A DNA stretch of 64,000 nucleotides from Alcaligenaceae bacterium (GTDB lineage: Bacteria; Pseudomonadota; Gammaproteobacteria; Burkholderiales; Burkholderiaceae_B), in NCBI GenBank assembly GCA_013416435.1, contig JACCEN010000009.1, positions 62,001-126,000 of the forward strand. The letters run 5' to 3'. The notes under the pieces were generated by a model. The model ran no database searches. It saw nothing but the letters and a program-made list of their open reading frames with translations, and had not been told where the DNA came from. Positions within the stretch are counted from its first letter, which is position 1; every line of letters begins with the position of its first letter. A program made the position numbers and the translations under genes. Positions 1 to 18,327 of the stretch are shown here, piece after piece.

Positions 1-1224
1 GCGGCGCTGGTGCCGATCTATCTGCGGCAGAGACATGTCGAAGACGTGAAGTCGGTGCTGACGCTTCACAACATTGCCTTCCAAGGCATCTTCCCGATGT
101 CGCTCGCTTCACAGTTAGGCATCGAGGAAGCCTATTGCTCTTCCGACGGCCTCGAGTACTGGGGACAGTTGAACTTCCTGAAAGGCGGCATTCGCTATGC
201 CGACTTGATCACCGTGGTCAGCAGCAATTATGCGCGCGAGATACTGACGCCGCGTTTCGGCTGCGGCCTGGAACAGTTATTGGCGCAAAGGCGCGCCGAC
301 CTTATTTCCATACCGAACGGAATCGATACCGTTCTTTGGAACCCGCAGGCGGACGAATTCCTGAGCGGAGAGGGCTTCAGCGTCGAATGCCTTGAGAAGA
401 AACGCCGATACAAAGCGGCCTTGCAAAAGTCCTTCGGCCTGGACGTCATGCCCGGCTCGACGCTGATGGCCATGGGAAGCCGCCTGACGACGCAGAAAAT
501 GGCCGATGTGGCCATGGCGGCGATTCCACGCGCCCTGGACGCACACGCGGATCTGCAAGTATGCGTCATGGGGCAAGGCGAGAAAGGCTTGGAGCAAGGT
601 CTGCTGCAAGTCGCCGAACGCTACCCCGGGCGGTGCAGCGTACATGTTGGCTTCGATGAGCCGCAAGCGCACCTTCTCCATGCCGGCGCCGACGTGCTCT
701 TGCATGGCAGCCGCTTCGAACCCTTCGGCCTTACGCCGCTTTATGCCATGCGCTACGGGTCGGTGCCGATAGGGTCGCGGGTGGGGGGGATGGCCGACAC
801 CATCATCGATCCAGGCAGCGGAGCATCGGGCGCTGCGATGCGTGGCGCCAACGGCATCCTGTTTGACGGCGAGCGGGCGGAAGACATGCTGGGCGCGATA
901 CACAGAGTCATGGCACTGCGCCGCACACCGGACCTTTGGCGTGCGGTGCAGGTGAACGGCATGAAAACGGACTACAGCTGGGAAAGGTCCGCGCCGGCCT
1001 ATCTCAGTGCTTATCAAGCATTGCGCCCGGATGTCATGCTGGGCCGCATTCCAGAGCGCCGCAACGCCATGGCGGGGGCGCGTGGCTGGAAACCCGTGCT
1101 GCCGGCTTCGCTGCGTGCAGCGCCGGTCGCGGGACCGTCCACGGGCGCGGTCATGGGGCGCGCCAAGCGCAAAGGACTGGAGGTCGGAAGCGCAATCTCG
1201 GCGCGTGAACCATCTGCGGCCTGA
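1..1224 (+). CDS. glgA: Glycogen synthase (ADP-glucose type), 3' part
   Basis: Family GT5 enzyme that extends alpha-1,4-glucan from ADP-glucose in the cytoplasm. The frame is open to the first base, so the start codon and the N-terminal ADP-glucose-binding part lie outside the window. About 407 residues remain. Visible GT5 marks are the segment SIPNGIDTVLWNP, the C-terminal Rossmann half with SRLTTQK, and the donor-binding stretch SRFEPFGLTPLYAMRYG followed by VGGMADT. The last 60 or so residues (after the WERSAPAY helix) form a basic, low-conservation tail. The stop is two bases before glgE, so this is the upstream gene of the glg/tre operon. Confidence 0.95.
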   Translation, partial: AALVPIYLRQRHVEDVKSVLTLHNIAFQGIFPMSLASQLGIEEAYCSSDGLEYWGQLNFLKGGIRYADLITVVSSNYAREILTPRFGCGLEQLLAQRRADLISIPNGIDTVLWNPQADEFLSGEGFSVECLEKKRRYKAALQKSFGLDVMPGSTLMAMGSRLTTQKMADVAMAAIPRALDAHADLQVCVMGQGEKGLEQGLLQVAERYPGRCSVHVGFDEPQAHLLHAGADVLLHGSRFEPFGLTPLYAMRYGSVPIGSRVGGMADTIIDPGSGASGAAMRGANGILFDGERAEDMLGAIHRVMALRRTPDLWRAVQVNGMKTDYSWERSAPAYLSAYQALRPDVMLGRIPERRNAMAGARGWKPVLPASLRAAPVAGPSTGAVMGRAKRKGLEVGSAISAREPSAA

Positions 1225-1226
1225 TC

Positions 1227-4200
1227 ATGCGTATTTATCACTTGCGCAGTGCGACCGCTCCTTCCGGATGGGGGGCGGTATGCAATCATGCGAAAGGCTT
1301 GGGCTTCGACCATCTTCTGGTTTCGCTGCCCTTCCACGAATGGGAGCAGGCATGCAGCCCGTTGGCGCAGGAATGCGAACGGGCCGGCTTGATTCTGCTG
1401 ACCGATCTCGATCTTTCCGAGGGCATGGCCGAAGGGCCGGACGCCTGGGCCGAGCCGTTGATGGCGTCGCTGCGTGCAGGTGTGGCCGGATTCCGTGTCC
1501 TGCAGCCCTCGCGGCTTGGCGGAGACGCCTGGGCCGCCATGATTGCCCGGGTGCACGAGCATCATCCGGACGCGATGTTCCTGGCATGGACACCGGGCCT
1601 GACTCGGCATCAATTGAGGGACCTGCCGGAGTCAGGGTTCGACTACGTCTTTTCGTCCTTGCCATGGTGGGATTTCCGCTCGGACTGGCTGGTCGAGGAA
1701 CGCGCTCGCCTGCGGGAAGTGGCTCCCGTCATTGCGCCCGTCTACATGCCGGATGGGCAGGCGCAGCAGGAAGATCAGCAACGCGCACGGCGCTGGCTGT
1801 GGACGGCGGCCTTCCTGGGAGACGGTTTTCTGGTGCAGGAAGGGCTGGAAGATCTGGCGGGCGGCGAAGTCATGCAAGAGGTGAACCGCTGGGCATCCCG
1901 GGACGATGCCGGAACCGCGCGCATCCGGGGACTGACAGGCCCATTGTCGCCAACGACGGCGCTGGCGCGGCTGGACGCCAAGCCGTCCGTTCTGCTGATC
2001 AATCCCCGGGACGATGTAGAGGTGCCCATAGACGTGCTGCAGTTGAGCGCCCGCTTGCCCGGAAGCTACGCATTGGCTGAAGTAGCGGCTGGTTCTGTGC
2101 CGGGCGGATTGGCTCCCGGCGGCTGGATGCTGCTGCCGTTGGAAGAAGCCAAGCCGGTGCTGATGCCGACCGGCGTAAAAGCCTGGCGTCGCAAAGGCGT
2201 CACGGAGGCAATGGCATCGCCCCGTATTGCAATCGAGCGGATCACGCCCCTGGTGGACGACGGCATGTTTGCCGTCAAGCGCACCGTGGGCGAGCCCGTG
2301 GAAGTGCAGGCGGACATCTTCATGGACGGCCATGCCAAGCTTTCGGCCAGCCTGCTCTGGCGCGCAGCCGACGAGCCGAACTGGCGCCGCGTTCCCATGA
2401 GGTTAGTGGATAACCACCGATGGAGCGCCACCTTTCATCCGCGCCGGCTGGGCATGCATTGCTACGCGATCCAGGCCTGGCGCGACGATTGGCTGAGCTA
2501 CCGGGACGGCCTGGCCAAGCGTGTGGCCGCCGGGCAGGACGTGGCGCTTGATGTGGAAGAGGGGCGCATGCTGATCGGGCGCTATCGCGACCGCATTCAG
2601 GATGAGCTGCCCGAAATGGCCAACACGCTGGCGTCCATGGTGCGCAAGATCGGAAATCCGCGCTCCACTACGGCGCCCGTCCCCAAGAAGAAATCCCTGC
2701 TTACGGGTGCCGCGCCGGAAACGGGTGCGCGGGACCTGCCCGCTGCGCTGGATGAGCACATCGACTTGCTGTTGTCGGAATTGTGGTCGAGCATCATGCA
2801 TGAGGTGCCGGTTCGCCCGTTCGAGACGACGACGCCCAATTATCCATTGATGGTGGAAAGGCGCGAGGCGGGGTACGCGTCCTGGTATGAATTGTTTCCC
2901 CGCTCGCAGGCGCCGGAGCCCGATCGGCACGGGAGCTTCCAGGACGTCATTGCGCGCCTGCCGTATATCCGGATGATGGGGTTCGATGTGCTGTACATGC
3001 CCCCCATACATCCGATCGGGCTGGCGAACCGCAAGGGCAGGAACAACGCCCTGCGGGCCGAGCCCGGCGACCCGGGCAGCCCGTATGCCATCGGCTCCGA
3101 AGAGGGCGGGCACGATGCCGTGCATCCCGAGCTCGGCACCATAGAAGACTTCCAGGAACTGGTGAGCGCCGCGCAAGCCCAGCACCTGGAAGTGGCGCTG
3201 GACTTCGCGATCCAGTGCTCGCCGGATCACCCGTGGCTGAAGGCGCATCCCGAATGGTTCGATTGGCGCCCGGACGGCACATTGCGCTATGCGGAGAACC
3301 CGCCCAAGCGATACGAGGACATCGTCAACCCCGAGTTCTATGCAAGTTCCGACGTTGCACCGGGCAAGGCCGGGTTGTGGAGGGCCTTGCGCGACGTTAT
3401 CTTGTTCTGGGCAAGCCAGGGCGTACGCACCTTCCGCGTCGACAATCCGCACACCAAGCCGCTGCCGTTCTGGCAATGGCTCATTGCGGAAGTGCAGGGC
3501 GCGCACCCCGACGTCATTTTTCTTTCCGAGGCATTCACGCATCCAAAGCTGATGTATCGCCTGGGCAAGCTGGGCTTCTCGCAGTCCTATACCTACTTCA
3601 CATGGCGGCACGGCAAGCAGGAGCTGACCGATTATCTGCTCGAGGTATCACGGCCGCCCGTGTCGGATTATTTCCGGCCGCATTTCTTCGTCAATACCCC
3701 GGACATCAATCCCTACTTCCTGCAGGAGTCGGGCCGAGCCGGTTTCCTGATCCGGGCCGCGCTGGCGGCCACGACGTCGGGCTTATGGGGCATGTACAGC
3801 GGCTTCGAGCTCTGCGAGGCCAGGCCCGTTCCCGGTAAAGAGGAATATCTGGACTCGGAGAAATACCAATTACGCCATTGGGATTGGGGCCGGCCCGGCA
3901 ACATCGTGCAGGCCATCGCGCGGCTCAATCATATCCGGCGGATCAATCCCGCCTTGCAGATGCAGCAGGGGCTCGCGTTTCACTCCGTCGACAACGAGCA
4001 GATACTGTTTTTCACGCGGAGCACTCCCGACCGGGATAACGTCGTACTGGTCGCGATCAGTCTGGATCCTCATGCGCGGCAAACCGGGAGGCTGGAGCTG
4101 CCCCTGGAAGCCTGGGGGCTGAGCGGGCGTCCGGTGCCGCTGCACGACCTGCTCAGCGATCAACACTTCACCGCTTATGACCCCTGGCGCCACGTCGAAT

Positions 4201-4253
4201 TGACGCCTGAGCAGCCCTTCCTTATCTGGCGGCTTTCTTCCGCGGAGGCATGA
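1227..4253 (+). CDS. glgE: Alpha-1,4-glucan:maltose-1-phosphate maltosyltransferase with N-terminal extension
   Basis: GH13_3 enzyme that moves maltose from maltose 1-phosphate to the non-reducing end of an alpha-glucan. The canonical enzyme fits residues from about 328 to 1008: an N-terminal beta domain, then the barrel with PPIHPIG and KGRNN, nucleophile D739 in FRVDNPHTKP, acid/base E768 in FLSEAF and D826 in NTPDIN, then EYLDSEKYQ. At 1008 residues it is about 330 longer than the actinobacterial enzyme. The extra N-terminal part aligns with the protein's own barrel but lacks the catalytic acids (see findings). It starts two bases after glgA and its stop overlaps the ATG of treS. Its substrate would come from the TreS-maltokinase encoded next. 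Confidence 0.93.
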   Translation: MRIYHLRSATAPSGWGAVCNHAKGLGFDHLLVSLPFHEWEQACSPLAQECERAGLILLTDLDLSEGMAEGPDAWAEPLMASLRAGVAGFRVLQPSRLGGDAWAAMIARVHEHHPDAMFLAWTPGLTRHQLRDLPESGFDYVFSSLPWWDFRSDWLVEERARLREVAPVIAPVYMPDGQAQQEDQQRARRWLWTAAFLGDGFLVQEGLEDLAGGEVMQEVNRWASRDDAGTARIRGLTGPLSPTTALARLDAKPSVLLINPRDDVEVPIDVLQLSARLPGSYALAEVAAGSVPGGLAPGGWMLLPLEEAKPVLMPTGVKAWRRKGVTEAMASPRIAIERITPLVDDGMFAVKRTVGEPVEVQADIFMDGHAKLSASLLWRAADEPNWRRVPMRLVDNHRWSATFHPRRLGMHCYAIQAWRDDWLSYRDGLAKRVAAGQDVALDVEEGRMLIGRYRDRIQDELPEMANTLASMVRKIGNPRSTTAPVPKKKSLLTGAAPETGARDLPAALDEHIDLLLSELWSSIMHEVPVRPFETTTPNYPLMVERREAGYASWYELFPRSQAPEPDRHGSFQDVIARLPYIRMMGFDVLYMPPIHPIGLANRKGRNNALRAEPGDPGSPYAIGSEEGGHDAVHPELGTIEDFQELVSAAQAQHLEVALDFAIQCSPDHPWLKAHPEWFDWRPDGTLRYAENPPKRYEDIVNPEFYASSDVAPGKAGLWRALRDVILFWASQGVRTFRVDNPHTKPLPFWQWLIAEVQGAHPDVIFLSEAFTHPKLMYRLGKLGFSQSYTYFTWRHGKQELTDYLLEVSRPPVSDYFRPHFFVNTPDINPYFLQESGRAGFLIRAALAATTSGLWGMYSGFELCEARPVPGKEEYLDSEKYQLRHWDWGRPGNIVQAIARLNHIRRINPALQMQQGLAFHSVDNEQILFFTRSTPDRDNVVLVAISLDPHARQTGRLELPLEAWGLSGRPVPLHDLLSDQHFTAYDPWRHVELTPEQPFLIWRLSSAEA

Positions 4254-7200
4254 TGGAGACCCAGTGGTACAAGGATGCGGTCATTTATCAGTTGCATGTC
4301 AAGTCGTTTTTCGACGCGAACAATGACGGCCAGGGAGATTTTGCGGGCCTGATCGAGAAACTGGATTACATCGCCGGCCTGGGCGTCAACACGGTCTGGC
4401 TTTTGCCCTTCTATCCTTCGCCCCGTCTGGACGACGGCTACGATATTGCCGAATATCGCGGCGTGCATGAGGATTACGGGTCGCTGGCGGACGTGCGCAG
4501 GTTCATCCGTGCGGCGCATGAACGCGGCTTGCGAGTGATCACCGAGCTGGTGGTCAACCACACGTCCGATCAGCATGCCTGGTTCCAGCGCGCCCGCCGG
4601 GCCAAGCCGGGATCCGCGGCCCGCAACTTTTACGTCTGGTCGGATAACGACCAGGCCTACAGCGGGACCCGAATCATTTTCTGCGATACGGAGAAGTCCA
4701 ACTGGACCTGGGATCCGGTCGCCGGCGCCTATTTCTGGCACCGCTTCTATTCACACCAGCCGGATCTCAACTACGACAACCCGCGTGTCCTGAAGGCAGT
4801 CATCGGCATCATGCGCTTCTGGCTGGACATGGGAGTCGACGGCCTGCGGCTGGACGCGGTGCCGTATCTGGTGGAGCGCGAGGGAACGAACAACGAGAAT
4901 CTGCCGGAGACACATGCCGTCCTCAAGCAGATACGCGCGGCGCTCGATCGCGATTACCCCGACCGCATGCTGCTGGCCGAGGCGAACCAGTGGCCGGAAG
5001 ACGCGCAGGAGTATTTCGGGGAGGGAGACGAATGCCATATGTCCTTCCATTTTCCGCTCATGCCGCGCATGTATATGGCCATTGCGCGCGAGGACCGCTT
5101 GCCCATCGTGGACATCATGCAGCAGACGCCCGAAATCCCCGAGCCATGCCAATGGGCCATCTTTCTGCGCAATCACGATGAGCTGACGCTCGAAATGGTG
5201 TCGAGCAGCGAGCGGGATTATCTATGGGACGTCTATGCGGCCGATCGTCGTGCGCGTATCAACCTGGGCATACGCAGGCGTCTCGCTCCCTTGCTGGAGC
5301 GGGATCGCCGGCGCATCGAATTGATGAACAGCCTGTTGCTTTCCATGCCGGGAACACCGGTGCTCTACTACGGCGACGAAATCGGGATGGGGGACAATAT
5401 CCACCTGGGGGACCGCGACGGAGTCCGGACACCCATGCAATGGAGTCCAGACAGGAACGGCGGGTTTTCCAGGGCGGATGCGGAGCAATTGTCGTTGCCG
5501 GTGCTCATGGGATCGTTGTATGGCTATGAGGCGGTCAACGTCGAATCCCAGTTGCGCGACCCGCATTCGCTGTTGAACTGGACGCGGCGCATGCTTGCCA
5601 AGCGCCAGCAGACCCATGTCTTCGGACGGGGCAGCCTGCGTTTCCTGTATCCCGGCAATCGCAAGATCCTGGCCTATGTCCGCGAGTACGAAGGGACGGT
5701 GCTGCTGTGTGTCGTCAATCTGTCGAATGCATCTCAACCCGTCGAGCTCGATCTATCGGCCATGGCAGGGCGCGTGCCGATCGAAATGCTGGGCGGAACG
5801 CCGTTCCCCACCATAGGCACGCTTCCTTACCTGCTGACGTTGCCTCCCTACGGGTTCTACTGGTTCGAACTGAGCGAAGACGCCGCACCGCCGGCCTGGC
5901 ATGCGAGCGGCCCGCAGCAGATGCCCGAATACTTGACGCTGGTGCTGAGGCGAAGAGGGGCCTTGCTTCTGATGGAAGGCTCCCGCAGGGCACTGAGCCG
6001 GGAGGTGCTGCCGCTATACCTGGAAAGACAGCGCTGGTTTGCCGGTGCCCAGCCACAGGAGGGCGTGGGTGTCGCATACGTCGTTCCGCTTGCGGCGGCA
6101 GGCGATGCCCAGGGCGTGGAGTTCTTCCTCGCGGAATTCGAGGTCGGCGCCGGCAAGGACGCCGAGCCGGCGAACTATTTCTTGCCCGTGGGGCTGCGTT
6201 GGGAGGAAGAGCTGTCCGGCATGGCGGCGCAGTACGCGCTGGCCCGCGTCCGGCGCGCCGCCGAGGTGGGTTGGGCAACCGATGCACTGACCTTGCCGGA
6301 GTTCACGCGGGCGCTGCTGGCAAGCTGGGAAGCAGGTCGGGAAATCGACGTTGAAACCGCATCGGGCCGCTCACGCCTGATTTTCAGGACCGAACCGGGA
6401 TTCGCCGATTATGACTGGGGCGAAGAACTGAATCTGGATTGGTTTCCCGGCGAGCAGTCCAACAGCTCGGTGTCCATCTCGGACAAGGCCGTCCTCAAGC
6501 TGTTGCGCCGGGTGGTGGCGGGAGAGCATCCCGAAGCCGAGATGACACGCCGCCTTACTTCGATCGGGTATGCGAACTCCGCCGCGCTCCTGGGCGAGCT
6601 GCAGCGGGTTGACGAAGCCGGGCGGCCGCATACGCTGGCCTTGCTCCATGCGCGGATACCGAACCAGGGAGACGCCTGGGCATGGACCAGGGATTATTTG
6701 CAGCGTACGTTGGAGAATGCCGCATTGACGGGCGAAAGCCGGGCGGACTTCGAAGAGGATCTGCGCGGCTACACCACGGTGGCGGGCATCATGGGCGAAA
6801 GGCTGGCGCAGCTGCATGCGGCGCTGTCGCTGCCTACGGACGATCCTGCCTTCCAGCCGGACCCCGCAAGCGCGCGCGATGCGCAATCCTGGGCCGCCCA
6901 GGTCGGCGGCATGTTCGATGACGCCCTGGCGGCCGCGGATGGATGCGCGCTGCCCGACTCGTCCGCCCAGCAGTTGAAGGCCCTCCGGAATGCCCGGAAG
7001 GCCTTGCGCAAGCGCATCGACGCGCTGGCCGCCGAAATGCGCGGGACCGAGCGCACGCGCATTCATGGCGACTTCCACCTGGGCCAGATCCTGATCGCGC
7101 AGAACGACGTATACCTCATCGACTTTGAGGGCGAACCGGTGCGTTCGCTGGAGGAGCGCCGAGCCAAGAGCACGCGCTGGCGCGACGTTGCGGGATTGCT

Positions 7201-7621
7201 GCGCTCTTTCGATTATGCCTGCGCGGTATTCGCTTCATCTTCCACGCCCGTTGCGCGGCCCGAGGCGGGCGATGTGGACGCGTCCGGCGCTTCGGCGGCG
7301 GCGGTCATGGCACAGCAGCGGCAGGCACTGCTCGATCAATTTTGTGAAAGCGCTTCGCATGCATTTCTCCGAGCCTATCGCTCGACTTATGAAAGTGCAA
7401 TGCGCGCAGACCGGGAGAGCCCCGACGCGGTGGAAGAGCCCGCCGCGGAAGACAGCGGGAACGAACCCTTGCTGGAACTTGCGTTGCTGGAAAAGGCGGC
7501 TTACGAAATCCGCTACGAGGCCGCGCACAGGCCGGATTGGGTGCCCATACCCCTGGGCGGACTCTACAGGGTTGCGCGGCGCTTGCTGCAAAGCGACGAT
7601 CTGGAAGAAGGAGCATCATGA
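4250..7621 (+). CDS. treS: Trehalose synthase / maltokinase fusion
   Basis: Two enzymes in one 1123-residue chain. Residues 1 to about 550 are a GH13 trehalose synthase that interconverts trehalose and maltose: WYKDAVIYQ at the start, nucleophile D202 (LRLDAVPYL), acid/base E244 (LLAEANQW) and D310 (LRNHDE). Residues from about 570 to the end are a maltokinase of the aminoglycoside-phosphotransferase fold, which makes maltose 1-phosphate from maltose and [14 protein letters not shown], the catalytic-loop HGDFHLGQ (D941) and the metal-binding LIDFEGEP (D958). Together they turn trehalose into the GlgE substrate. ATGA overlaps link it to glgE before and glgB after. An ATG one codon later (4253) is an equally good start. 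Confidence 0.94.
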
Positions 7622-9573
7622 AGCCCACGGACGCCAAGGCGAGGACACCTGACCAGGAGGGAGGACACCGCCTTCTGCTCGGCGAACTGGACGTCCACCT
7701 GATGGCCGAGGGACGGCACTGGCAGTTGGCCGACTGCCTGGGCGCGCAGGCCATGATGGTGGACGGCGTCGAAGGAGTGCGTTTCGCGGTATGGGCGCCC
7801 AATGCCAGGAAAGTGTCCGTCGTCGGCGATTTCAATGACTGGGATGGGCGGCGCGATCCCATGTTCCTGAGACGCGAGTGCGGTGTCTGGGAATGTTTCG
7901 TGCCGGGCGTAGGGGCCGGCGCGCTTTACAAGTACGAGCTGCAAGCGCCCAATGGCGACATGCTGGCCTTGAAGGCGGACCCGATGGCGCGGCAAAGCGA
8001 ACTGCCTCCCGCCACGGCGTCGGTGGTGGCGGAGCGCGAGGCCTTTCACTGGACGGACGAAGCATGGATGGCGGAGCGGGGGCGGCACCATCGTATCGAT
8101 GCCCCAATAGCGATCTACGAGGCGCATCTGGATTCCTGGGCACGCGATGCGGCACCGGGGCGCGTCTGGAAAGAAACGGGGCCGCGGCTGATCGCCTATG
8201 TCCGCGAAATGGGCTTCACCCACCTGGAGCTGCTCCCCATCATGGAACACCCTTTCGGCGGTTCGTGGGGCTATCAGCCGTTGGGCATGTTCGCGCCGTC
8301 GGCGCGATATGGCTCCCCGGCGGAATTCGCCGCATTCGTCAACGACTGCCATGCGGCGGGGCTGGGGCTTATCCTGGATTGGGTGCCGGCGCATTTCCCG
8401 TCCGATCCGCATGGGCTCGCCTGGTTCGACGGCACAGCGCTCTATGAGCATGCCGATCCGCGACAGGGGTTCCATCCGGACTGGAATACCCTGATCTATA
8501 ACTTCGGCCGTACCGAAGTCCGCAATTTCCTGATGGCGAGCGCCCTGGAATGGCTGCAGCGCTTTCACGTCGACGGCTTGAGAGTGGACGCGGTTGCATC
8601 GATGCTGTACCTGGACTACAGCCGGGAGCCCGGGCAATGGACGCCGAATCGCTACGGCGGCCGGGAGAACCTCGAGGCGGTTTCATTCTTGCAGCAATTG
8701 AATGGGCTCGTGGCCGAGCGCTGCCCGGGCGCCATCATGATCGCGGAAGAATCGACGGCATGGCCTGGCGTCACGGCGCCCGTCAGCAGCGGCGGATTGG
8801 GCTTCCATTACAAATGGAACATGGGCTGGATGCACGATACGCTGAGCTACATGGCGCGTGATCCCATACATCGAACCTATCACCATCACGAAATGACGTT
8901 CGGCATGGTCTATGCCTATTCCGAAAACTTCATCCTGCCGCTCTCGCACGACGAGGTGGTGCACGGAAAAGGGTCGTTGTACGGCAAGATGCCGGGGGAC
9001 GCGTGGCAGCGCCATGCCAATCTCAGGGCCTACCTGGGCTTCATGTGGGGTCATCCCGGAAAAAAGCTGCTGTTCATGGGGGGAGAGCTGGCGCAGCCCG
9101 CCGAATGGAACCATGAGGCGCCGCTGGACTGGTCCGGCCTCGAACCGGACCATCCCGACGCCGGCATGCGCTTGGGCATGCAAAAGCTGGTGCGCGAGCT
9201 GAATGCCTTGTACCGGCGCCTGCCCGCCCTGCATGGCGGAGACTCGGATCCCACCGGCTTTGCGTGGGCGGTCGGCGACGATGCCCGAAACAGCGTCTAT
9301 GCCTATACCCGGTGGTATGCCGGGCAGTGCGTGCTCGTGGTGTCGAACATGACGCCGGTGCCGCGAGAGGGTTATCGGCTGGGCGTGCCCGTCCCGGGCC
9401 GCTGGTGCGAGCTATTGAATACGGACGCTGCGGCTTATGGCGGGTCCAATGTTGGCAACGGCGGCGAGGCATGGACTTCCCCCGTTTCGGCGCACGGGCA
9501 CGAGCATTCGCTTTCCCTTCGAATTCCGCCTTTGGCAACGTTGATGTTTGTACCGCAGGAGTGTCTCACATGA
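7618..9573 (+). CDS. glgB: 1,4-alpha-glucan branching enzyme
   Basis: Introduces alpha-1,6 branches into glucan. A CBM48-type N-terminal domain ([18 protein letters not shown]) is followed by a GH13_9 barrel with nucleophile D324 ([15 protein letters not shown]), acid/base E377 (IAEESTAWP) and D445 (LSHDEVVHG), then a C-terminal beta domain. I chose the ATG that overlaps the treS stop (ATGA). The frame is open 27 codons further upstream, but those residues run inside treS and look unlike GlgB. At 651 residues it is shorter than the 728-residue E. coli enzyme because it lacks the extra N-terminal module. Its stop overlaps the ATG of glgX. Confidence 0.95.
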
Positions 9574-11684
9574 TGACTTTGCCCGACCGGCTGGACGCCG
9601 GCCTTCCTTATCCGTTGGGGCCGACCAATGACGGCCTTGGCGTCAACTTCGCGGTGTTCTCGGCCAACGCCACGAAAATCGAGCTATGTATCTTCGACGA
9701 GCGAGGGCGCAGGGAATTGAAAAGGCTGCCCATGCCCGAATGCACGGATGAAATCTGGCACGGATATCTTCCCGACGCGGGGCCCGGGCTGGTCTATGGA
9801 TACCGCGCTTACGGGCCCTATGATCCCAAGCGGGGCCACCGCTTCAACCCTCAGAAGCTGCTGATCGATCCCTACGCACGCAAGCTGCAGGGCGAGTTGC
9901 GGTGGTCGGACGCGCTGTTCGGATACCGGGTGCAGCATCCCCGGGCCGATCTCAGTCTGGACCGGAGGGATTCGGCACCCTTGGTGCCGAAGTGCATTGT
10001 CACGGACACGCGCTTCAAGCCTGGTGAGCTGAACAAACCGGTTGCTCCTTGGGCGGAGACGGTCATCTATGAAGCCCACGTGCGCGGAATTTCGATGATG
10101 CGCGACGACATCCGCAAAGAGCTGCGGGGAACGAGCGGCGCGCTCGCCGACCCCAGGCTGATCGACCACTTGCTGAAGATCGGCGTGACGGCGATAGAGC
10201 TGCTTCCCGTGCATGCCCACCTGCAGGACCACTTCCTGTTCGAACGGGGGCTGCGCAACTACTGGGGCTACAACAGTCTTTCCTTCTTTGCGCCGCAGGC
10301 GACGTATCTTCAGAGTGGAATGAACAACGACCTGCGCATGGCGATCCGCCGGTTGCGCAGCGCAGGCATCGAAGTCCTGCTCGACGTGGTGTACAACCAT
10401 ACCTGCGAAGGCAACGAGCTGGGCCCGACGCTGTCCTGGAAGGGGCTGGACAATGCCAGCTATTATCGCCTTGTGCCGGGCGACGAGCGCTACTACATCA
10501 ACGATACGGGTTGTGGCAACACGGTGAACCTTTCGCATCCCCGCGTGCTGCAGATGGTGATGGATTCCTTGCGCTATTGGGTCGAAAGCTATGGGGTCGA
10601 CGGCTTCCGCTTCGACCTGGGCGTCACCTTGGGGCGCGAAGGAACGGGCTTCGATCCCGGATCCGGATTCTTCGACGCCATCCTGCAGGACCCGGTGCTG
10701 TCCCGGCTCAAGCTCATTTCCGAACCCTGGGACATTGGACCCGACGGCTATCAATTGGGAAACCATCCTCCCGGCTTCGCCGAATGGAACGGCCATTTCC
10801 GCGATGGCGTCAGGCGCTTCTGGGCGGGCGAGGAAGGCATGCGGGGCGAGGCCGCGGGCCTGTTGATGGGATCGCCGCAGCTCTTCGACAGCCGGCATCG
10901 CCGTCCGTGGGCGTCCGTCAACTTCCTGGCTTCGCACGACGGCTTTACCGGGAATGATCTCGTCACGTATGCGGAAAAGCATAACGAAGCGAACGGCGAC
11001 GATAACCAGGATGGGCACGGCGACAACTTCAGCGGCAACTGGGGCCATGAAGGCCCCATCGACGATCCCGCCATCCAGGCCTTGCGCCAACGTGTGCTGC
11101 GTTCGATGCTTGCGACGGTATTCGTGTCGCATGGCACGCCGATGCTGCTTGCCGGAGACGAGTTCGGCAACAGCCAGCAGGGCAACAACAACGCCTATTG
11201 CCAGGACAATGAAATTTCCTGGCTGGACTGGTCCCGCGCCGCTACGGCCGAGGGACGCGAGCTGACGGCGTTCGTGGCGAAGCTTGCCGCCTTGCGCCGC
11301 GCGCATCCGTCGCTGCGCTTTGCGCGATACGTGGATGGCAACCATGAGCTGCTTCCCGGCCTGACGCGGGTGAGCTGGTTCGATCTGGACGGCGGCCCCA
11401 TGAGCCCCGAAGCTTGGGATTACGCACCCGGCAGGGTGTTGGGCCTGCGCCGTGCCGCCGAAACGGCGGAAGGGCTCGTCGACCTGAGCCTGCTGCTTCT
11501 GAATGGTGGCGGCGACGACGTGCGCTTCCAGCTGCCCGAACCCGCATTCGACTGGACGCTGCGGCTGGACACCGCGAACCCTGGATCCGCTGCCGAGCCT
11601 CATGGCGGCGAGGCCTTGAAATTGCGCGCTCATTCCCTCATGGTGCTGACCGCCACCCATGAACCGAGGGCCGGCCATGGCTGA
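9570..11684 (+). CDS. glgX: Glycogen debranching enzyme GlgX
   Basis: Isoamylase-type GH13_11 enzyme that cleaves alpha-1,6 branches. An N-terminal CBM48 domain ([34 protein letters not shown]) precedes the barrel: nucleophile D349 ([12 protein letters not shown]), acid/base E385 ([15 protein letters not shown]) and D457 ([11 protein letters not shown]). It is 704 residues, normal for the family. The chosen ATG overlaps the stop of glgB. Longer upstream reading is glgB in another frame and is rejected. Here the enzyme should release linear malto-oligosaccharides that MalQ and TreY can use. Confidence 0.95.
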
Positions 11685-13524
11685 GCGGCGTGGGTTTATC
11701 GCCGAAGACAGCGCATACGCCTACGGATTCGGCGCGGTGCCGGTCAACGAGAGCCATACCCGTTTCCGCTTATGGGCGCCGGATGCTCGTCAGGTCCGAC
11801 TGGAGCTGGAGGGGCAGGTATCCATGCTGATGGGCACGGCGGCCGATGGTTTCCATGAGCTGACGTGCCCCTGCGCTGCGGGTACGCGGTATTGTTTCCG
11901 CATCGACGAGAACCTGTGCGTGCCGGATCCGGCCTCGCGCCGCCAGGATGGCGACGTCCACGACCAGAGCATCGTGGTGGATCCCACCGCCTATGAATGG
12001 CAGACCCGGGATTGGCGCGGCCTGCCATGGTCAGAAAGCGTGATCTACGAGATTCATGCCGGCTTGGCCGGCGGCTTCCGCGGGGTGCTGGAGAAGCTGG
12101 CGGAACTGAAGGACCTGGGCGTCACGGCCATCGAACTCATGCCTGTGGCCGATTTTCCGGGGCCCCGCAATTGGGGCTACGACGGTGTGCTGCCGTACGC
12201 GCCCGACAGCGCCTACGGTACGCCCGATGATCTCAGGTCGCTGGTCGACACCGCGCACGGGATGGGCATGCAGGTCTTTCTGGATGTGGTCTACAACCAT
12301 TTCGGGCCGGACGGCAATTATCTTGGCGAATATGCTTCCGATTTTTTCCGGAGCGATGTGAAGACGCCCTGGGGATCGGCCATCGATTTTCGCAAGACTC
12401 AGGTCAGGCGCTTCTTTTCCGAAAACGCTTTGTACTGGCTGGAGGAGTACCGCATGGACGGTTTGCGTTTCGACGCCGTGCATGCCATCCAGGCGGAGGG
12501 CTGGCTGCCGGAAATGGCGCGCTTCCTGCGGGACCGGATCGGACCTGACCGGCATGTGCACCTGATTCTGGAGAATGACGATAACAGCGCCGCTTTGCTG
12601 GGGCAGGGATTCGACGCCCAATGGAACGACGACGCCCACCATGTGCTGCACCATATCCTGACCGGAGAGGCGGAAGGGTATTACTCGGATTATTCGGAAG
12701 ATGCCACGGCGGATCTCGTCAAGCTGCTGGCCGAGGGCTTTGTCTACCAGGGACAGGCCAGTCGGTGGCGCAAGGGCGCCAGGCGCGGCCAGCCCAGCGC
12801 TGGTCTTTCGCCCCTGTCCTTCGTGTTCTTCCTTCAGAACCATGATCAGACCGGCAACCGGGCCATGGGAGAGCGTTTGAGCAGCCTGTGCGCCGACAGG
12901 CCGGAGGCGCTGCGCGCCGCCATTGCGCTGCAATTGCTGACGCCGCATATTCCGCTGCTTTTCATGGGAGAGGAATGCGGTTCGCGGGAGCCCTTTCTGT
13001 ATTTCACGAGCTTCCTCGACCGGGCGCTGGCGACCGCGGTGCGGGAGGGGCGGCGCGCCGAGTTCGCGGGCTTCTCCGCGTTCTCCGATGAGGAGGAACG
13101 GGCGCGCATTCCGGATCCGAACGATGTGCAGACCTGGGAGATGTCGCGTCCCGGCTCGCTGCATTGCGCGGATTCGGTTGCCAAGGGCTGGCGCGCCTAC
13201 TACCGCGGCTTGCTGCAAATCCGCAAGCAGTTCTTGACGCCGCAGCTGGAAGGCGTTCGATCCATTGGTGTGCGGAAATTGGGCAAGTTTGCCGTGGTGG
13301 CGGCCTGGAGGCTGGGCAACGGCAGCGTACTGAGGCTGTATTGCAATTTATCCCGAGAGGACGCGCCGACGCCTGACGATGTTTCCGCCAACGAAGTCAT
13401 CGTGTTTGCCAGCGCCAAGCAATCGGACGCCGCGCTGCGCAAAGGGCGGCTGCCGGCGGAGAGCACCGTCGCCACGATCGAGTCGATGTCTTCCATGCCC
13501 GTCCGGACTCGGAGAAGGCGATGA
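11677..13524 (+). CDS. treZ: Malto-oligosyltrehalose trehalohydrolase
   Basis: Second step of the TreY/TreZ route: cleaves maltooligosyl-trehalose to free trehalose. GH13_10 layout: N-terminal CBM48-like domain (FRLWAPDARQV), barrel with VIYEIHAG, NWGYDGVLPYAPDSAYG, nucleophile D266 (LRFDAVHAI), acid/base E299 (LILENDDN) and D390 (LQNHDQTGNR). I chose the ATG at 11677 because a GAGGG ribosome-binding site lies about eight bases before it. An in-frame ATG 18 bases earlier would add MNRGPA. The start overlaps the end of glgX and the stop overlaps the ATG of malQ. The treZ-malQ-treY order keeps the trehalose-forming pair in one transcript. Confidence 0.94.
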   Translation: MAERRGFIAEDSAYAYGFGAVPVNESHTRFRLWAPDARQVRLELEGQVSMLMGTAADGFHELTCPCAAGTRYCFRIDENLCVPDPASRRQDGDVHDQSIVVDPTAYEWQTRDWRGLPWSESVIYEIHAGLAGGFRGVLEKLAELKDLGVTAIELMPVADFPGPRNWGYDGVLPYAPDSAYGTPDDLRSLVDTAHGMGMQVFLDVVYNHFGPDGNYLGEYASDFFRSDVKTPWGSAIDFRKTQVRRFFSENALYWLEEYRMDGLRFDAVHAIQAEGWLPEMARFLRDRIGPDRHVHLILENDDNSAALLGQGFDAQWNDDAHHVLHHILTGEAEGYYSDYSEDATADLVKLLAEGFVYQGQASRWRKGARRGQPSAGLSPLSFVFFLQNHDQTGNRAMGERLSSLCADRPEALRAAIALQLLTPHIPLLFMGEECGSREPFLYFTSFLDRALATAVREGRRAEFAGFSAFSDEEERARIPDPNDVQTWEMSRPGSLHCADSVAKGWRAYYRGLLQIRKQFLTPQLEGVRSIGVRKLGKFAVVAAWRLGNGSVLRLYCNLSREDAPTPDDVSANEVIVFASAKQSDAALRKGRLPAESTVATIESMSSMPVRTRRRR

Positions 13525-15644
13525 GCCGCCCGGAGGCGGAGGCGCTGCATGGCCTTGCGCGGGCTGCGGGCTTGCTGCCTGAATGGCGGGATGCCTTCGG
13601 CGCGCCGCGTACGGTTGCGCCGGAGGTCCTGGCAGGCATGCTGGAGCGCATGGGTTTTCCTTGTGGCACCACGGACGATCTGCGGGAAAGCCTGCACAAG
13701 CTCGAATCCAAGGCGGACACGGCGCGCCGGCCGCTGGTGGTCGCGGATGCCGGAAGGTCCATCGAACTGCGCGGCGTGACGGGGCTGAAGTACAAGGTGG
13801 AGCTGGAGTCCGGCGAGATGCTGTTCGGCACGGCGAATCCCGGCGCGGACGGGTCGGTCGCCATCCCCGCCATCCGCAGGCCCGGATACCACCGCCTGCT
13901 GATCGGAGAGCGGCGGCTGACGCTCGCGGTCTGTCCCTTGCGCTGCCCGACGGTCGAAGACAGGAAGGCGGGACACGGCATACGGCCATGGGGCATCGGC
14001 GCGCAGCTTTACAGCTTGTCCGGCCTGGGCGCTTATGCGCAACTGGCAGGCCTGGCCGGACAGGCTGCGAAGAACGGCGCCAGCGCGTTGGCGATCAGTC
14101 CCGCACATGCCATGTTCAGTGCCGACCCGTCGCGCTTCAGCCCTTATTCGCCCTCCAGCCGCCTGTTCTTGAATGTGGCGCATATCGAGCCCTCCCGTGT
14201 CCTGGGGCCGGATGCCGCAGCCGAAGCACGTGATGCGCCGGCGGCCGATGGGCGCGGTGCCATGGCGGCGGATTCCCGGTATGTGCATTGGGAGCGTGTC
14301 CTGCCCGCGCGGTTGAGCATCTTGAGGCGGCTGTTCGGTCTATTCCGGAACCGGGCGACTGAAGAACAAAGGCGGGCGCTGGCGGAGTTTTGCCGTCAGG
14401 GCGGGCACGCGCTCAGGCATCATGCCTGCTACGAGGCGTTGCACGCGCACTATTCGGCGTCATTGGGTGCAGGCTGCGGATGGCGGGATTGGCCGGCCGA
14501 GCTTCATGATCCAGAGGGGCGGGCGGCACAGGATTTCGCCCGTGAAAATGCGCTCGACGTGGATTTCCATATGTTCCTGCAGTGGCAGGCTTCCCGCGGC
14601 CTGGCAGGCGCGCAGCGCGCTGCGAAGGATGCCGGAATGGATATCGGCCTGATCGCCGACCTGGCAATCGGCGTCGACGCGCGCGGCAGCCAGGTCTGGA
14701 GCCGGCAGTCCGAAATGCTCGTTGGCGCCTCGGTTGGAGCTCCGCCGGATATCTATCAGCCGTTGGGGCAGAATTGGGGACTTTCGACGTTTTCGCCCTG
14801 GTCGCTTGCCGATGAGTCCTATGCGGGCTTCCTGGAAACCCTGCGTGCCGGTTTCGCTCATGCGGGGGGGCTGCGCATCGACCACATACTCGGTTACGGC
14901 AGGATGTGGCTGATCGAAGAGGGCGCCGATTCAAGGGACGGGGTTTACCTGCGCTATCCGCTGGATGACATGCTGCGCCTGCTCACGCTGGAAGCGTGGC
15001 GTAGCGGAGCCGTCGTCATCGGCGAAAATCTGGGCACGGTCCCGGAAGACTTCAACGACAAGCTGGAACGCCGGGGCATCATGGGCACCAGCGTTCTTTG
15101 GTTCGAGCGGTCGAACGGTGAACATTCCGAGGATGGGGCGCCCGGTTTTACCCCCGCCGATCAATGGCCCGACTGGACCATGGCCACCAGCACCACGCAC
15201 GATCTTCCCACTGTGGCGGGCTGGTGGAAGGGCAGAGATCTTCATTGGCGCCGCCTTCTGTTCCCGCCGGAAGGCGTGGAAGACGTCCATGCCGACGCCG
15301 CGGGCGCTAGTGAAAGCGAGACGAATACAAGGGCGCTGGAGCGCGTCCAGCTGTGGCGGCAAGTCTCGCCGTTGACCGGGAAGCCGCCCCCTTCGGAGCC
15401 GCCGCTGGCGGAAATACTGGCCTTTGTGGCAAAGGCGCCGTCGCCGCTTTTCATGTTGCCCCTGGAGGATCTGCTGGGCGTCGAGGAGCAGCCCAATATT
15501 CCCGGAAGCCGGGCCGGGCTGGAGGCCGGGCGCTACCCCAGCTGGATGCAGGCATTGGGCGAAGATATCGAGGCCATGTGGTCGAGCGAACGCGTCCGGA
15601 AAACAATCGAAGCCGTCAATAAAGCCAGGGCGCGCCAACCATGA
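13521..15644 (+). CDS. malQ: 4-alpha-glucanotransferase (amylomaltase)
   Basis: GH77 enzyme that disproportionates malto-oligosaccharides. It has an N-terminal extension of about 150 residues before the barrel (IGAQLYSLSG, FSPYSPSSRLFLN), as in the longer proteobacterial MalQ group. Catalytic positions are nucleophile D454 (LRIDHILGYGRMW), acid/base E502 (IGENLGTVPEDF) and D561 (STTHDLPTVAGWW). The ATG overlaps the treZ stop (ATGA). A 16-base gap with a clear ribosome-binding site leads to treY. Its likely job is to recycle the short glucans left by GlgX and TreY. Confidence 0.94.
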   Translation: MSRPEAEALHGLARAAGLLPEWRDAFGAPRTVAPEVLAGMLERMGFPCGTTDDLRESLHKLESKADTARRPLVVADAGRSIELRGVTGLKYKVELESGEMLFGTANPGADGSVAIPAIRRPGYHRLLIGERRLTLAVCPLRCPTVEDRKAGHGIRPWGIGAQLYSLSGLGAYAQLAGLAGQAAKNGASALAISPAHAMFSADPSRFSPYSPSSRLFLNVAHIEPSRVLGPDAAAEARDAPAADGRGAMAADSRYVHWERVLPARLSILRRLFGLFRNRATEEQRRALAEFCRQGGHALRHHACYEALHAHYSASLGAGCGWRDWPAELHDPEGRAAQDFARENALDVDFHMFLQWQASRGLAGAQRAAKDAGMDIGLIADLAIGVDARGSQVWSRQSEMLVGASVGAPPDIYQPLGQNWGLSTFSPWSLADESYAGFLETLRAGFAHAGGLRIDHILGYGRMWLIEEGADSRDGVYLRYPLDDMLRLLTLEAWRSGAVVIGENLGTVPEDFNDKLERRGIMGTSVLWFERSNGEHSEDGAPGFTPADQWPDWTMATSTTHDLPTVAGWWKGRDLHWRRLLFPPEGVEDVHADAAGASESETNTRALERVQLWRQVSPLTGKPPPSEPPLAEILAFVAKAPSPLFMLPLEDLLGVEEQPNIPGSRAGLEAGRYPSWMQALGEDIEAMWSSERVRKTIEAVNKARARQP

Positions 15645-15660
15645 TCAGGAGAGTCTTTCC

Positions 15661-18327
15661 ATGACACCGTTGTCCACCGTCCGCCTGCAATTGCATTCCG
15701 AGTTCGGTTTCGACGCGGCGCGCGAGCAGGTGCCTTATTACTCCCGCCTGGGCGTCTCGCATTTCTACCTGTCGCCCGTCACCCGGGCGCGCCCCGGCTC
15801 CCGCCATGGCTATGACGTGGTCGATCCTACACGCGTGAGCGGGGAGCTGGGCGGGGAAGAAGGCCTGATCGGGCTGGCGGAGCGCCTGCATGAGCACGAC
15901 ATGGGCCTGATCCTGGACATCGTGCCCAACCACATGGCGGTCCATGCCGACAATGCCTGGTGGTGGAGCGTGCTTGAGCTCGGCGTGAAAAGTCCTTACG
16001 CGGCATGGTTCGACATCAACTGGCAGGCGGCGGATCCGCAACTGCGCGGCAAGGTCATGGCTCCCTTTCTTGCGCGCCCTTACGCGGAAAGCCTTGCAAA
16101 CGGCGACATCCGGCTCGCCTACGATGGCCAGGCCGCAGCCTGGCGCATAGAAGCCTGCGGCAATCCCTATCCCATTGCCGAAGGCACGATGCCGGGCCTG
16201 GGACTGGATCCGGCCCAGTCCCAGAGCCTCTTCAGCGGCGATCATGCAGACGGCCGCCAGCGCCTGCACGATCTGCTCGAGCGCCAGCATTACCGGCTTT
16301 CCTGGTGGCGCAGCGCGGCCGACGGCATCAACTGGCGCCGGTTCTTCGACATCACCGAACTGATCGGCGTGCGCGTTGAGATGGAAGAAACCTTCGAGGC
16401 GGTGCACGCTTTGCCTTTGAGCCTGTATGAGGACGGCTTGATCGATGGTCTTCGGATCGATCATGTGGACGGGCTTGCCGATCCGTTGGGATACTGCCGC
16501 CGATTGCGCACCGCACTTGACGAGCGCGCTTCGCGCCGCCCGGCGGGCCCAGGCTCTGACCGCGCCTGGATCGTCGTCGAGAAGATCCTCGCGCCCAGTG
16601 AAACGCTGGATGGCGATTGGCAGGCGGATGGGACGACGGGATATGACTTCATGGACCAAGTGGGCGCCGTGCTGCACGATCCGGGAGGCAAGGCCGCACT
16701 GACATCCGCATGGAGCGCCGTGGCACAGGATGGCCGCGACGTCCGCGAGCATGTGCGCCAGGCGCGGGCGCTGATGTTGCAGCGCTATTTCGTGGCAGAA
16801 CGGAAGGCATTGCTGGAAGCATTGCGCGACGTGGCGCAGCGTGGGCTGGAAGGCCGGGACTGGAGCATTGAAGCCATCGGCCGCGTCATGGACGAGCTGT
16901 TGATCGATTTTTCGGTGTATCGCACCTATGCTGACGGAAGCGGGCGCCGGCAGGCTGATGCCGACTTGTTCAAGCGCTTGCTGCCGGTAGTGGCCGAACG
17001 TTTGGAGCTGGAGCGCTACGAGGGCGGGCAATTGCTGGCCTGCCTGGACGGCTGGCTGGGCGGCAAGCCTTGCGGAAGCGTCGCCATTCCGGATGCGCCG
17101 GGCGGCGGCGATGCACGGAAAGCCGCGCTGAACCGCTTCCAGCAGTTGACGCCCCCGCTTGCGGCAAAGTCTCTGGAGGACACCGTATTCTATCGATACG
17201 GGCGCCTGCTGTCGCGCAATGAGGTGGGGTCCGACCCTGCGGTGTTTTCTTTATCGGTGGATGATTTTCACCAGCAAAATGCCTGGCGGGCCCGTTACGG
17301 CAATATGTCGATGCTCGCGACGGCCACTCATGATCACAAGCGCGGAGAGGACGTCCGGGCCCGTCTGGCGGTGCTCAGCGAGATACCGCTGCAGTGGGGG
17401 CGCAAGGCGGGTGGATGGCTGCGTGATGCCGAGCATGAATATCCAGTGGGCAGCGCCCGCCGGGCGGGAGAGCGCTATATGCTGTTCCAGATGCTGGTTG
17501 GCGCATGGCCGCTGGACTTGGCGCCGGATGCGGCATCCGGCCGGCAGGCCTATCTGGACAGGATAGCCACATGGCAGCTCAAGGCGCTGCGCGAGGCCAA
17601 GCAGGGCAGCAGCTGGATGGCGCCGGACCAGGCCTACGAAGCGCGGGCCGCCGAGTTCATCGACAGCCTGCGTGTCGGCGGACCCAACCATGCGCTGCTG
17701 ACGGAGATCGGTGAATTCGCTCACGATGTGGCGCCCGCCGGCGTCGTCAACAGCCTGGCGCAACTGATGCTGAGGCTGATGTCGCCCGGCATCCCCGATC
17801 TGTACCAAGGCACGGAATTATGGGACTTCAGCCTGGTGGATCCGGACAACCGGCGCGCAGTGGCTTACGAGCCGCGTTCTCGCCTGCTGGAAGAGCTCGA
17901 TGGAAAGGACTCGTCCGCGCTGCTACGGGACTGGAGGTCGGGGGCGGTCAAGCAGTCGGTGCTGACTCGATCGCTGGCGCTGCGGCGCAGCATGCCGGAG
18001 CTGTTCCGCAAGGGCGAATATGTGCCGTTAAGGATCGACGGGCCGCGGTCCGGACACGTGCTGGCCTTCATGCGTGTGCTGGGCGAGCAGCATGCAATCG
18101 TCGTGGTTCCGCGCTTGTGTGCGCAGGCGATAGGCCTGGGCGCTTCCACCCCCATGCTGCCCGCCACCTACTGGCGGGGCACCAGGCTGGTGCTGCCGTC
18201 GCGGTATGCGGGCGCTGCCTTGAGCGATGCGCTGACCGGCGAACGATTGGGCGGCGGGACGGGCGGCGTGCTCGATGTCGCCGGCCTGCTGGCAGGCTTG
18301 CCCGTGGCGCTGCTGGTCGAGGCTTGA
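15661..18327 (+). CDS. treY: Maltooligosyl trehalose synthase
   Basis: Converts the reducing end of a malto-oligosaccharide into a trehalose unit by intramolecular transglycosylation (GH13_26). Seen: TVRLQLH at the start, YLSPVTRARPGSRHGYDVVDP, DIVPNHMA, nucleophile D267 (LRIDHVDGLADP), acid/base E307 (IVVEKIL), D558 (ATATHDHKRGEDVRARL) and PGIPDLYQGTELWDFSLVDPDNRR near the end. 888 residues is normal for the family. The ATG is preceded by AGGAGAG with good spacing. Upstream in-frame codons run through malQ and are not used. It is the last gene of the cluster and is followed directly by palindromic repeats that probably end the transcript. Confidence 0.95.
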   Translation: MTPLSTVRLQLHSEFGFDAAREQVPYYSRLGVSHFYLSPVTRARPGSRHGYDVVDPTRVSGELGGEEGLIGLAERLHEHDMGLILDIVPNHMAVHADNAWWWSVLELGVKSPYAAWFDINWQAADPQLRGKVMAPFLARPYAESLANGDIRLAYDGQAAAWRIEACGNPYPIAEGTMPGLGLDPAQSQSLFSGDHADGRQRLHDLLERQHYRLSWWRSAADGINWRRFFDITELIGVRVEMEETFEAVHALPLSLYEDGLIDGLRIDHVDGLADPLGYCRRLRTALDERASRRPAGPGSDRAWIVVEKILAPSETLDGDWQADGTTGYDFMDQVGAVLHDPGGKAALTSAWSAVAQDGRDVREHVRQARALMLQRYFVAERKALLEALRDVAQRGLEGRDWSIEAIGRVMDELLIDFSVYRTYADGSGRRQADADLFKRLLPVVAERLELERYEGGQLLACLDGWLGGKPCGSVAIPDAPGGGDARKAALNRFQQLTPPLAAKSLEDTVFYRYGRLLSRNEVGSDPAVFSLSVDDFHQQNAWRARYGNMSMLATATHDHKRGEDVRARLAVLSEIPLQWGRKAGGWLRDAEHEYPVGSARRAGERYMLFQMLVGAWPLDLAPDAASGRQAYLDRIATWQLKALREAKQGSSWMAPDQAYEARAAEFIDSLRVGGPNHALLTEIGEFAHDVAPAGVVNSLAQLMLRLMSPGIPDLYQGTELWDFSLVDPDNRRAVAYEPRSRLLEELDGKDSSALLRDWRSGAVKQSVLTRSLALRRSMPELFRKGEYVPLRIDGPRSGHVLAFMRVLGEQHAIVVVPRLCAQAIGLGASTPMLPATYWRGTRLVLPSRYAGAALSDALTGERLGGGTGGVLDVAGLLAGLPVALLVEA

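Follow-up and report, generated by a model that had tools for sequence, protein, structure and literature searches.

The window, i.e. the whole 64,000 nt stretch of DNA analysed (positions 62,001–126,000 of contig JACCEN010000009.1 from an Alcaligenaceae bacterium), contains near its start a glgE gene whose product is 1008 aa long, whereas the chains of solved GlgEs, among them those of Streptomyces coelicolor (3ZSS) and Mycobacterium tuberculosis (4U33) comprise 663–723 residues. Like those enzymes, residues 331–1008 are an ordinary GlgE: they returned a GlgE from the PDB at an E-value of 1.4e-160, Pfam recognized domain N/S (residues 332–545), Alpha-amylase (563–739) and GLGE_C (918–996) in the protein, and the catalytic residues D739 and E768 are present, as they are in 77/77 extended GlgEs (near relatives, with the window included and six short frames left out: two of L078; L050, L051, L104 and L106). 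What remains is an N-terminal extension, residues 1–330, for which, searched on its own at E-values up to 1, neither Pfam nor NCBIfam contained a matching family and phmmer retrieved nothing from the PDB; another named family was thus not obtained for it from these three sources. The evidence presented below indicates that this extension is almost certainly a dead domain of glycoside hydrolase family 13 (GH13).

An earlier note on this DNA had read the extension as a dead copy of GlgE's own catalytic barrel, with L92 opposite the nucleophile D739 and W121 opposite the acid/base E768. The alignment on which this reading was based held. Using BLASTP, residues 85–157 of the extension were paired with residues 732–806 of the rest of the protein (E-value 1e-4 in a single comparison, 29.6 bits, 32 % over 78 columns), whilst hhalign placed residues 4–120 on 554–767 of the GlgE barrel (probability 97.3, E-value 1.9e-11, 116 columns). 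In addition, a profile of 16 extensions retrieved, from the genome to which the window belongs, the GlgE barrel at an E-value of 2.1e-9, as well as unextended GlgEs of other genomes at 5.6e-14 to 3.4e-9; this search and the hhalign result rule out a chance match. The earlier register was retained by the profile alignment up to residue 120, and the profile and multiple alignments agree in setting L92 opposite D739. For W121 the assignment comes from the multiple alignment, in which the Glu of 16/16 GlgE barrels and of four other GH13 barrels shares a column with W121, and their Asp one with L92; BLASTP opens a gap of 2 residues directly after 'FL', and W121 is consequently shifted and left unpaired with E768 there. 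The match is therefore real. It represents no more than the best-conserved part, from strand 4 to helix 6, of a domain that is present in full length.

A structure prediction, which the earlier note had suggested as a check, returned the GH13 barrel that it had anticipated. Alignments of 59 and 53 sequences were used for structure prediction, the extension being modelled from the 59 (window and related loci). The AlphaFold2 model of the extension (predicted local distance difference test score, pLDDT, 91.4; predicted template modelling score, pTM, 0.88) has eight strands (residues 2–6, 29–32, 56–61, 88–91, 117–120, 140–142, 168–172 and 200–204) alternating with helices and followed by a beta domain; the full-length GlgE was modelled as a monomer with a pLDDT of 82.5 and a pTM of 0.79. 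Foldseek against the PDB gave GlgEs at ranks 1–13 (E-values 1.5e-14 to 7.6e-13), and VIA-align superposed model residues 1–311 on GlgE 5CIM with 308 residues aligned (Z 25.7, root mean square deviation 3.7), the domain C region of the model being aligned with GlgE up to chain residues 662–692. Judged by the model, the extension is more than a barrel, namely a whole GH13 unit of domains A and C, and it shares the predicted fold of these domains with solved GlgEs; it has no domain N/S and neither of the two catalytic residues. The first entry other than GlgE in the VIA-align comparison, AmyP (Z 24.8), ties with GlgE within 1, and for this reason the fold comparison is silent on the choice of family. 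In the window extension, the loop that joins strand 3 to strand 4 is much shortened: 32 residues separate two landmarks that are 82–84 residues apart in the intact relatives described below (84 in 14/15) and a median of 73 apart in the others.

The catalytic residues of GH13 enzymes sit at strand ends, and activity requires an Asp after strand 4 and a Glu after strand 5; the window extension has L92 and W121 at these positions. Loss is the rule among its kin. In the 77 near relatives the acid/base column holds W in 72, D in two and A, Y or F in one each, never E, and the nucleophile column is scattered (R 40, L 11, E 6, Q 6, H 5, D 4, others). For a wider tally, 110 extensions were aligned, including partial ones at contig ends and many that are not independent of one another (numerous Cupriavidus and Achromobacter); L122, L124 and L128 had been dropped as repeats of L184, L185 and L175. 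A complete Asp/Glu/Asp triad was present in 15 of these, one had N/E/D, one V/E/G, and the rest were without the Glu, the acid/base column being gapped in two of the 110. The intact extensions are found in more distant genomes and carry the motifs GFRCDAAYK, AETLG and FPE(N/S)HD. All 15 have D in the nucleophile column, as opposed to 6/95 of the others (R 44, L 18, E 7, D 6, Q 6, H 5, V 2, others), and all 15 have E, L and Q at residues 121 (the acid/base), 123 and 158, where W, P and E occur in 85, 84 and 92 of the 95, respectively. At the position of the third carboxylate, an Asp after strand 7 in active GH13 enzymes, the letter aligned in the window is D, preceded by P instead of His, in a poorly aligned stretch. 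When five relatives were searched against Pfam, the three intact ones matched hDGE_amylase and Alpha-amylase, whereas the two dead ones gave nothing above the cut-off.

The intact relatives also bear on where the extension came from. The part of the earlier claim that stands is that of a pseudo-GH13 barrel without catalytic residues; its derivation from GlgE's own barrel is probably wrong, since a separate GH13 enzyme, which retains the triad and in some genomes is encoded alone, resembles the extension far more closely. By BLASTP the window extension matches one such stand-alone relative, P0004 of genome G348, at 72.4 bits (E-value 2e-18), and the profiles of dead and intact extensions align end to end over 374 columns (E-value 2.7e-54). 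Dead and intact forms also have in common a WWD...W block following strand 6. In the BLASTP alignment GlgE shares the first Trp of this block alone and has R, H and Y at the places of W148, D149 and W154. A Cys directly before the nucleophile position occurs in 14/15 intact extensions and in 50/95 of the others, vs 0/128 GlgE barrels (V 123, I 5). In the PDB the intact domain is nearest by sequence to 3DHU (E-value 6.3e-27) and 4GKL (4e-26), then to GlgE (8.9e-19), which suggests that its nearest solved kin are maltogenic amylases. These two have been grouped in the new subfamily GH13_48, of which L-[DN] at the end of conserved sequence region V is a feature, and the Cys before the nucleophile is typical of GH13_48 and GH13_49 (PMC11239784). 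The intact carriers are Azospirillum and genomes of another class than the window's, which we take to be Alphaproteobacteria. A protein encoded on an Azospirillum oryzae plasmid and named 'maltotransferase domain-containing protein' (WP_149200961.1; L193) has the domain order found here, with the extension before GlgE, but differs in that its extension keeps the full triad, DED.

Stand-alone intact genes were seen in G489, G657 and G348. In the first two, whose glgE is located on a different contig, the intact GH13 gene encodes an unassigned enzyme within a trehalose gene cluster; it directly precedes treZ in the same orientation (L176:5608–11727 and L178:2948–6192), overlapping it by 4 bases in L176, where treY follows (G489), and with overlapping frames in L178. 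In G348 (L175; contig C62:14834–18051) the intact gene is found just upstream of a glgE broken into several frames, which is either an assembly error or a pseudogene.

Phylogenies were computed for the barrels and for the GlgE cores separately. The barrel tree (75 rows, quick search, branch support by the Shimodaira–Hasegawa-like approximate likelihood ratio test) covered 55 of the 110 extensions, L129 and L130 being among those omitted, and 16 of 109 GlgE barrels, and was built with the three catalytic columns removed. Forms without the Glu made up one group (38 rows, support 99), as did the GlgE barrels (16 rows, 99), with no extension inside the latter. Two unfused GH13 proteins with D and E intact, L190 and L191 (G509 and G394), were placed among the intact forms (18-row group, 90). 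The GlgE core tree, in which the extension was not used and seven columns around a secondary glucan site (the Tyr646-type site, see below) were removed, covered 81 of 128 cores, including 36 of the 83 whose extensions lack a full triad. All 34 sampled GlgEs with a Glu-less extension fell in a 46-row group (99), which in turn is nested, together with six intact-fused GlgEs, in a group of 53 rows (99); the GlgEs of two genomes with stand-alone genes branch just outside it (90). Three other intact-fused GlgEs and two part-way forms were placed elsewhere. Ten unextended GlgEs, from families of the window's class and forming one group (99), stand among those with dead domains, which suggests that the extension was lost there.

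From these data we infer capture: an amylase-type GH13 module of domains A and C would have been joined to the front of GlgE whilst still intact, and would later have lost its nucleophile and acid/base, mostly through a Glu-to-Trp change at the end of strand 5. The alternative is internal duplication, in which GlgE's catalytic barrel was copied, the copy, now the extension, later died, and the intact domains are a separate lineage fused at the same place. This alternative draws on a number of observations that weigh against capture. Besides the own-barrel match obtained by BLASTP, profile search and hhalign, the profile of dead extensions reaches GlgE in the PDB (E-value 2.4e-15) before 3DHU (1.1e-6), and the fold matches likewise place GlgE first; W147 of the conserved block lies opposite W793 of GlgE by BLASTP, a Trp kept in 128/128 GlgEs, and the window extension has a Val (V91) where the Cys would be. 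The phylogeny proposed in the earlier note does not decide the matter. In approximately unbiased (AU) tests, a tree with dead extensions and GlgE barrels on one side of a branch was not rejected (p 0.83), and neither was one that unites all extensions (p 0.79). Each of the two constrained trees had a better score than the unconstrained quick tree, meaning that the tree search was incomplete. Duplication would nevertheless require two fusions at one place, and it has to accommodate the end-to-end similarity of dead and intact domains, the Cys, the shared WWD...W block, the stand-alone genes and a group of GlgE barrels that no extension enters. Because the first four of these weigh more, capture of an amylase-like enzyme is probable, and a copy of GlgE's barrel improbable.

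The extension has been retained in the window's family. In a set of 61 genomes it was found in 17, all of that family, and GlgE domain N/S in 18; within the family (37 genomes sampled) it is present in 16/16 GlgE-bearing genomes, and it was not found in the two GlgE-bearing genomes of other families in the set. In a sample of 299 genomes of the phylum, 47 had GlgE and at least 16 of these the domain, as a separate gene in G348; the profile search scored up to six candidates per genome, and some extensions may be missed. Among the 80 retained of 142 relatives the named carriers include Bordetella, Achromobacter, Cupriavidus, Pusillimonas, Noviherbaspirillum and Stella; Rhizobium and Azospirillum carry the extension on plasmids. 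One genome, G033 (L034:7066–8100), carries a solitary 344 aa relative of the dead extension with no GlgE domain N/S and with the WWD block lost, either a leftover or a domain with an independent life. The extension is under purifying selection, with a ratio of nonsynonymous to synonymous substitution rates (dN/dS) of 0.218, vs 0.101 for the core (one pair, with Parapusillimonas granuli L035, the nearest named relative; simple counting). This value and the retention in 16/16 genomes disfavour a decaying, functionless leftover, and with its catalytic residues lost and its sequence still under selection the extension is a putative pseudoenzyme. Conservation is concentrated at residues 120–162, in the segments immediately following strands 5 and 6 and in the subsequent helix, which by the strand order of the model would be the old active-site end of the barrel; W147, W148, W154 and E158 are present in 77/77 near relatives.

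With regard to function, our overall best explanation, which we favour with moderate confidence, is that the captured amylase-type module died and now acts without catalysis. As for what it does, our first guess, and a tentative one, is that docking of glucan is its main role: by means of the Trp-rich patch, the dead domain would retain the alpha-glucan acceptor, or guide it, for use by the active site of GlgE. A precedent for such a role is the secondary glucan site in domain C of S. coelicolor GlgE, which aids polymer extension: a Tyr646-to-Ala change lowered kcat/Km on alpha-glucan 31-fold and left maltohexaose kinetics unaltered (PMC5076824). A more specific, and rather unlikely, version is that the fused intact amylase, surviving as a two-enzyme protein in Azospirillum and others, died in one lineage and became a docking site replacing the Tyr646-type site. 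An aromatic residue (Y/W/F) is found in the Tyr646 column of 20/33 unextended GlgEs, 5/82 with extensions lacking the full triad, 0/7 with intact extensions and 0/3 GlgEs of genomes with a stand-alone or separate gene. Once kinship was taken into account (four independent pairs on supported branches, on average 0 going the same way, 1.9 the other and 2.1 tied; median p 0.5), loss of the aromatic in extended GlgEs was not significant. Replacement of this site was dropped as a finding, the initial 12/14 aromatic among unextended GlgEs having fallen to 20/33 with a larger set and the independent pairs being too few. Docking faces further difficulties: the change matching Tyr646-to-Ala in Streptomyces venezuelae left growth and alpha-glucan normal (PMC5076824), divergence is faster in the extension than in the core (mean pairwise identity 32 % vs 68 %), and the extension is dispensable in some lineages, given that unextended GlgEs do without it and some of these branch inside groups of extended ones.

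The conserved Trp patch could, moreover, be structural. If so, the pseudo-barrel would be a pure scaffold that packs on domain N/S or a partner subunit and stabilizes folding or assembly without binding glucan, the patch serving as an interface. The conservation of W154, E158 and R161 in the helix beside the patch is in keeping with this, as are the reports that domain N contributes much of the dimer interface of GlgE and that domain S affects the lid of the adjacent subunit (PMC5076824), and that the GH13-like ectodomains of animal 4F2hc and rBAT serve the stability and trafficking of transporters (PMC8537225). Much of the conservation lies, however, just after model strands 5 and 6, which is the sugar-binding end in GH13; most of this conservation is also shared with the intact enzymes, where it presumably serves the active site, and this weighs against a scaffold. 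A scaffold is our second guess after docking, and a somewhat doubtful one. That the domain is rewired rather than dead, using other carboxylates (e.g. E158, a Gln in intact relatives) for another activity, would fit the joint occurrence of the changes Glu-to-Trp at 121, Leu-to-Pro at 123 and Gln-to-Glu at 158. Position 158 is situated inside model helix 154–162, away from the strand ends, and the nucleophile column is unconserved in the 95, making this very improbable.

4F2hc and rBAT (GH13_34 and GH13_35) are precedents for GH13-like domains that have no shown activity and work for another protein; they have been described as 'fake or orphan' alpha-glucosidases (PMC8537225), and human 4F2hc (2DH2) is among the fold matches of the extension (VIA-align Z 22.9). 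They are animal transporter subunits, whereas here the dead barrel is fused to a bacterial GH13 enzyme of glucan synthesis. Among PDB sequences, the best matches of the intact relatives are maltogenic amylases (4GKL and 3DHU) of GH13_48, a subfamily to which GH13_49 and GH13_38 are related (PMC11239784); the Cys typical of GH13_48 and GH13_49 also occurs in 14/15 intact relatives, and the window extension has lost it together with the nucleophile and acid/base. No description of an extra GH13 domain on GlgE was found in open-licence titles and the starts of abstracts, subscription papers and CAZy module assignments lying outside this scope, and the first 300,000 of the 445,374 characters of the main text of a 2024 review (PMC11046441) contain none of the terms 'N-terminal extension', 'pseudoenzyme' or 'catalytically inactive'; such a domain may be recorded elsewhere. 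As a rule, pseudoenzymes come to notice only when the loss of catalysis is already complete. In the present case, every stage seems to be still extant: stand-alone and intact, fused and intact, with one or two residues lost, fully dead, and extension-less forms nested among the dead. These surviving stages permit the direct question of what contribution a dead carbohydrate enzyme makes to its partner protein. Many proteobacterial proteins annotated as GlgE or 'maltotransferase domain-containing protein' contain a third that lies outside that annotation, and some of them (Azospirillum) may be two enzymes in one.

The positions of all features are given in Table 1. The glgE gene starts 2 bases after the end of glgA, and its stop codon is overlapped by the ATG of the treS-maltokinase fusion at 4250.

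Table 1. Features of the extended glgE gene and neighbouring genes in the window
Feature	Position in window	Strand	Basis or remark
glgA, 5' part cut by window edge	10–1224	+	NCBIfam GlgA, E-value 8.7e-124
Extended glgE, 1008 aa	1227–4253	+	ORF (open reading frame), Pfam, PDB GlgE match; stop 4251–4253
Extension, GlgE residues 1–330	1227–2216	+	
Domain A, predicted complete (beta/alpha)8 pseudo-GH13 barrel, residues 1–212	1227–1862	+	AlphaFold2, VIA-align; end approximate
Predicted beta domain resembling GH13 domain C, residues about 232–311	1920–2159	+	Model strands 232–307; boundary approximate
L92 codon, nucleophile Asp position	1500–1502	+	Alignments
W121 codon, acid/base Glu position	1587–1589	+	Alignments
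WWD...W...E patch after strand 6, residues 147–158	1665–1700	+	Conservation
GlgE domain N/S, residues 332–545	2220–2861	+	PF11896, whole-protein E-value 3.3e-50
GlgE catalytic domain A/B and domain C, residues 546–1008	2862–4250	+	PF00128, PF21702
D739 codon	3441–3443	+	GlgE catalytic domain
E768 codon	3528–3530	+	GlgE catalytic domain
H989 codon, column of Tyr646 of S. coelicolor GlgE	4191–4193	+	Alignment (Tyr646 counted in printed chain)
treS-maltokinase fusion	4250–7621	+	NCBIfam TIGR02456/TIGR02457
glgB	about 7591–9573	+	NCBIfam NF003811

Eight glycogen and trehalose genes form one run at window positions 10–18327, in the order glgA, glgE, treS-maltokinase fusion, glgB, glgX, treZ, malQ and treY; the GlgA and GlgE routes are thus both present in this run, together with glgX, treZ, malQ and treY. 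A separate observation concerns three unextended GlgE-like proteins, L203, L204 and L205 (G095, G170 and G218), that have K in the acid/base column and A in place of the conserved Arg two residues before the nucleophile, and that possibly represent a second, independent GlgE pseudoenzyme.

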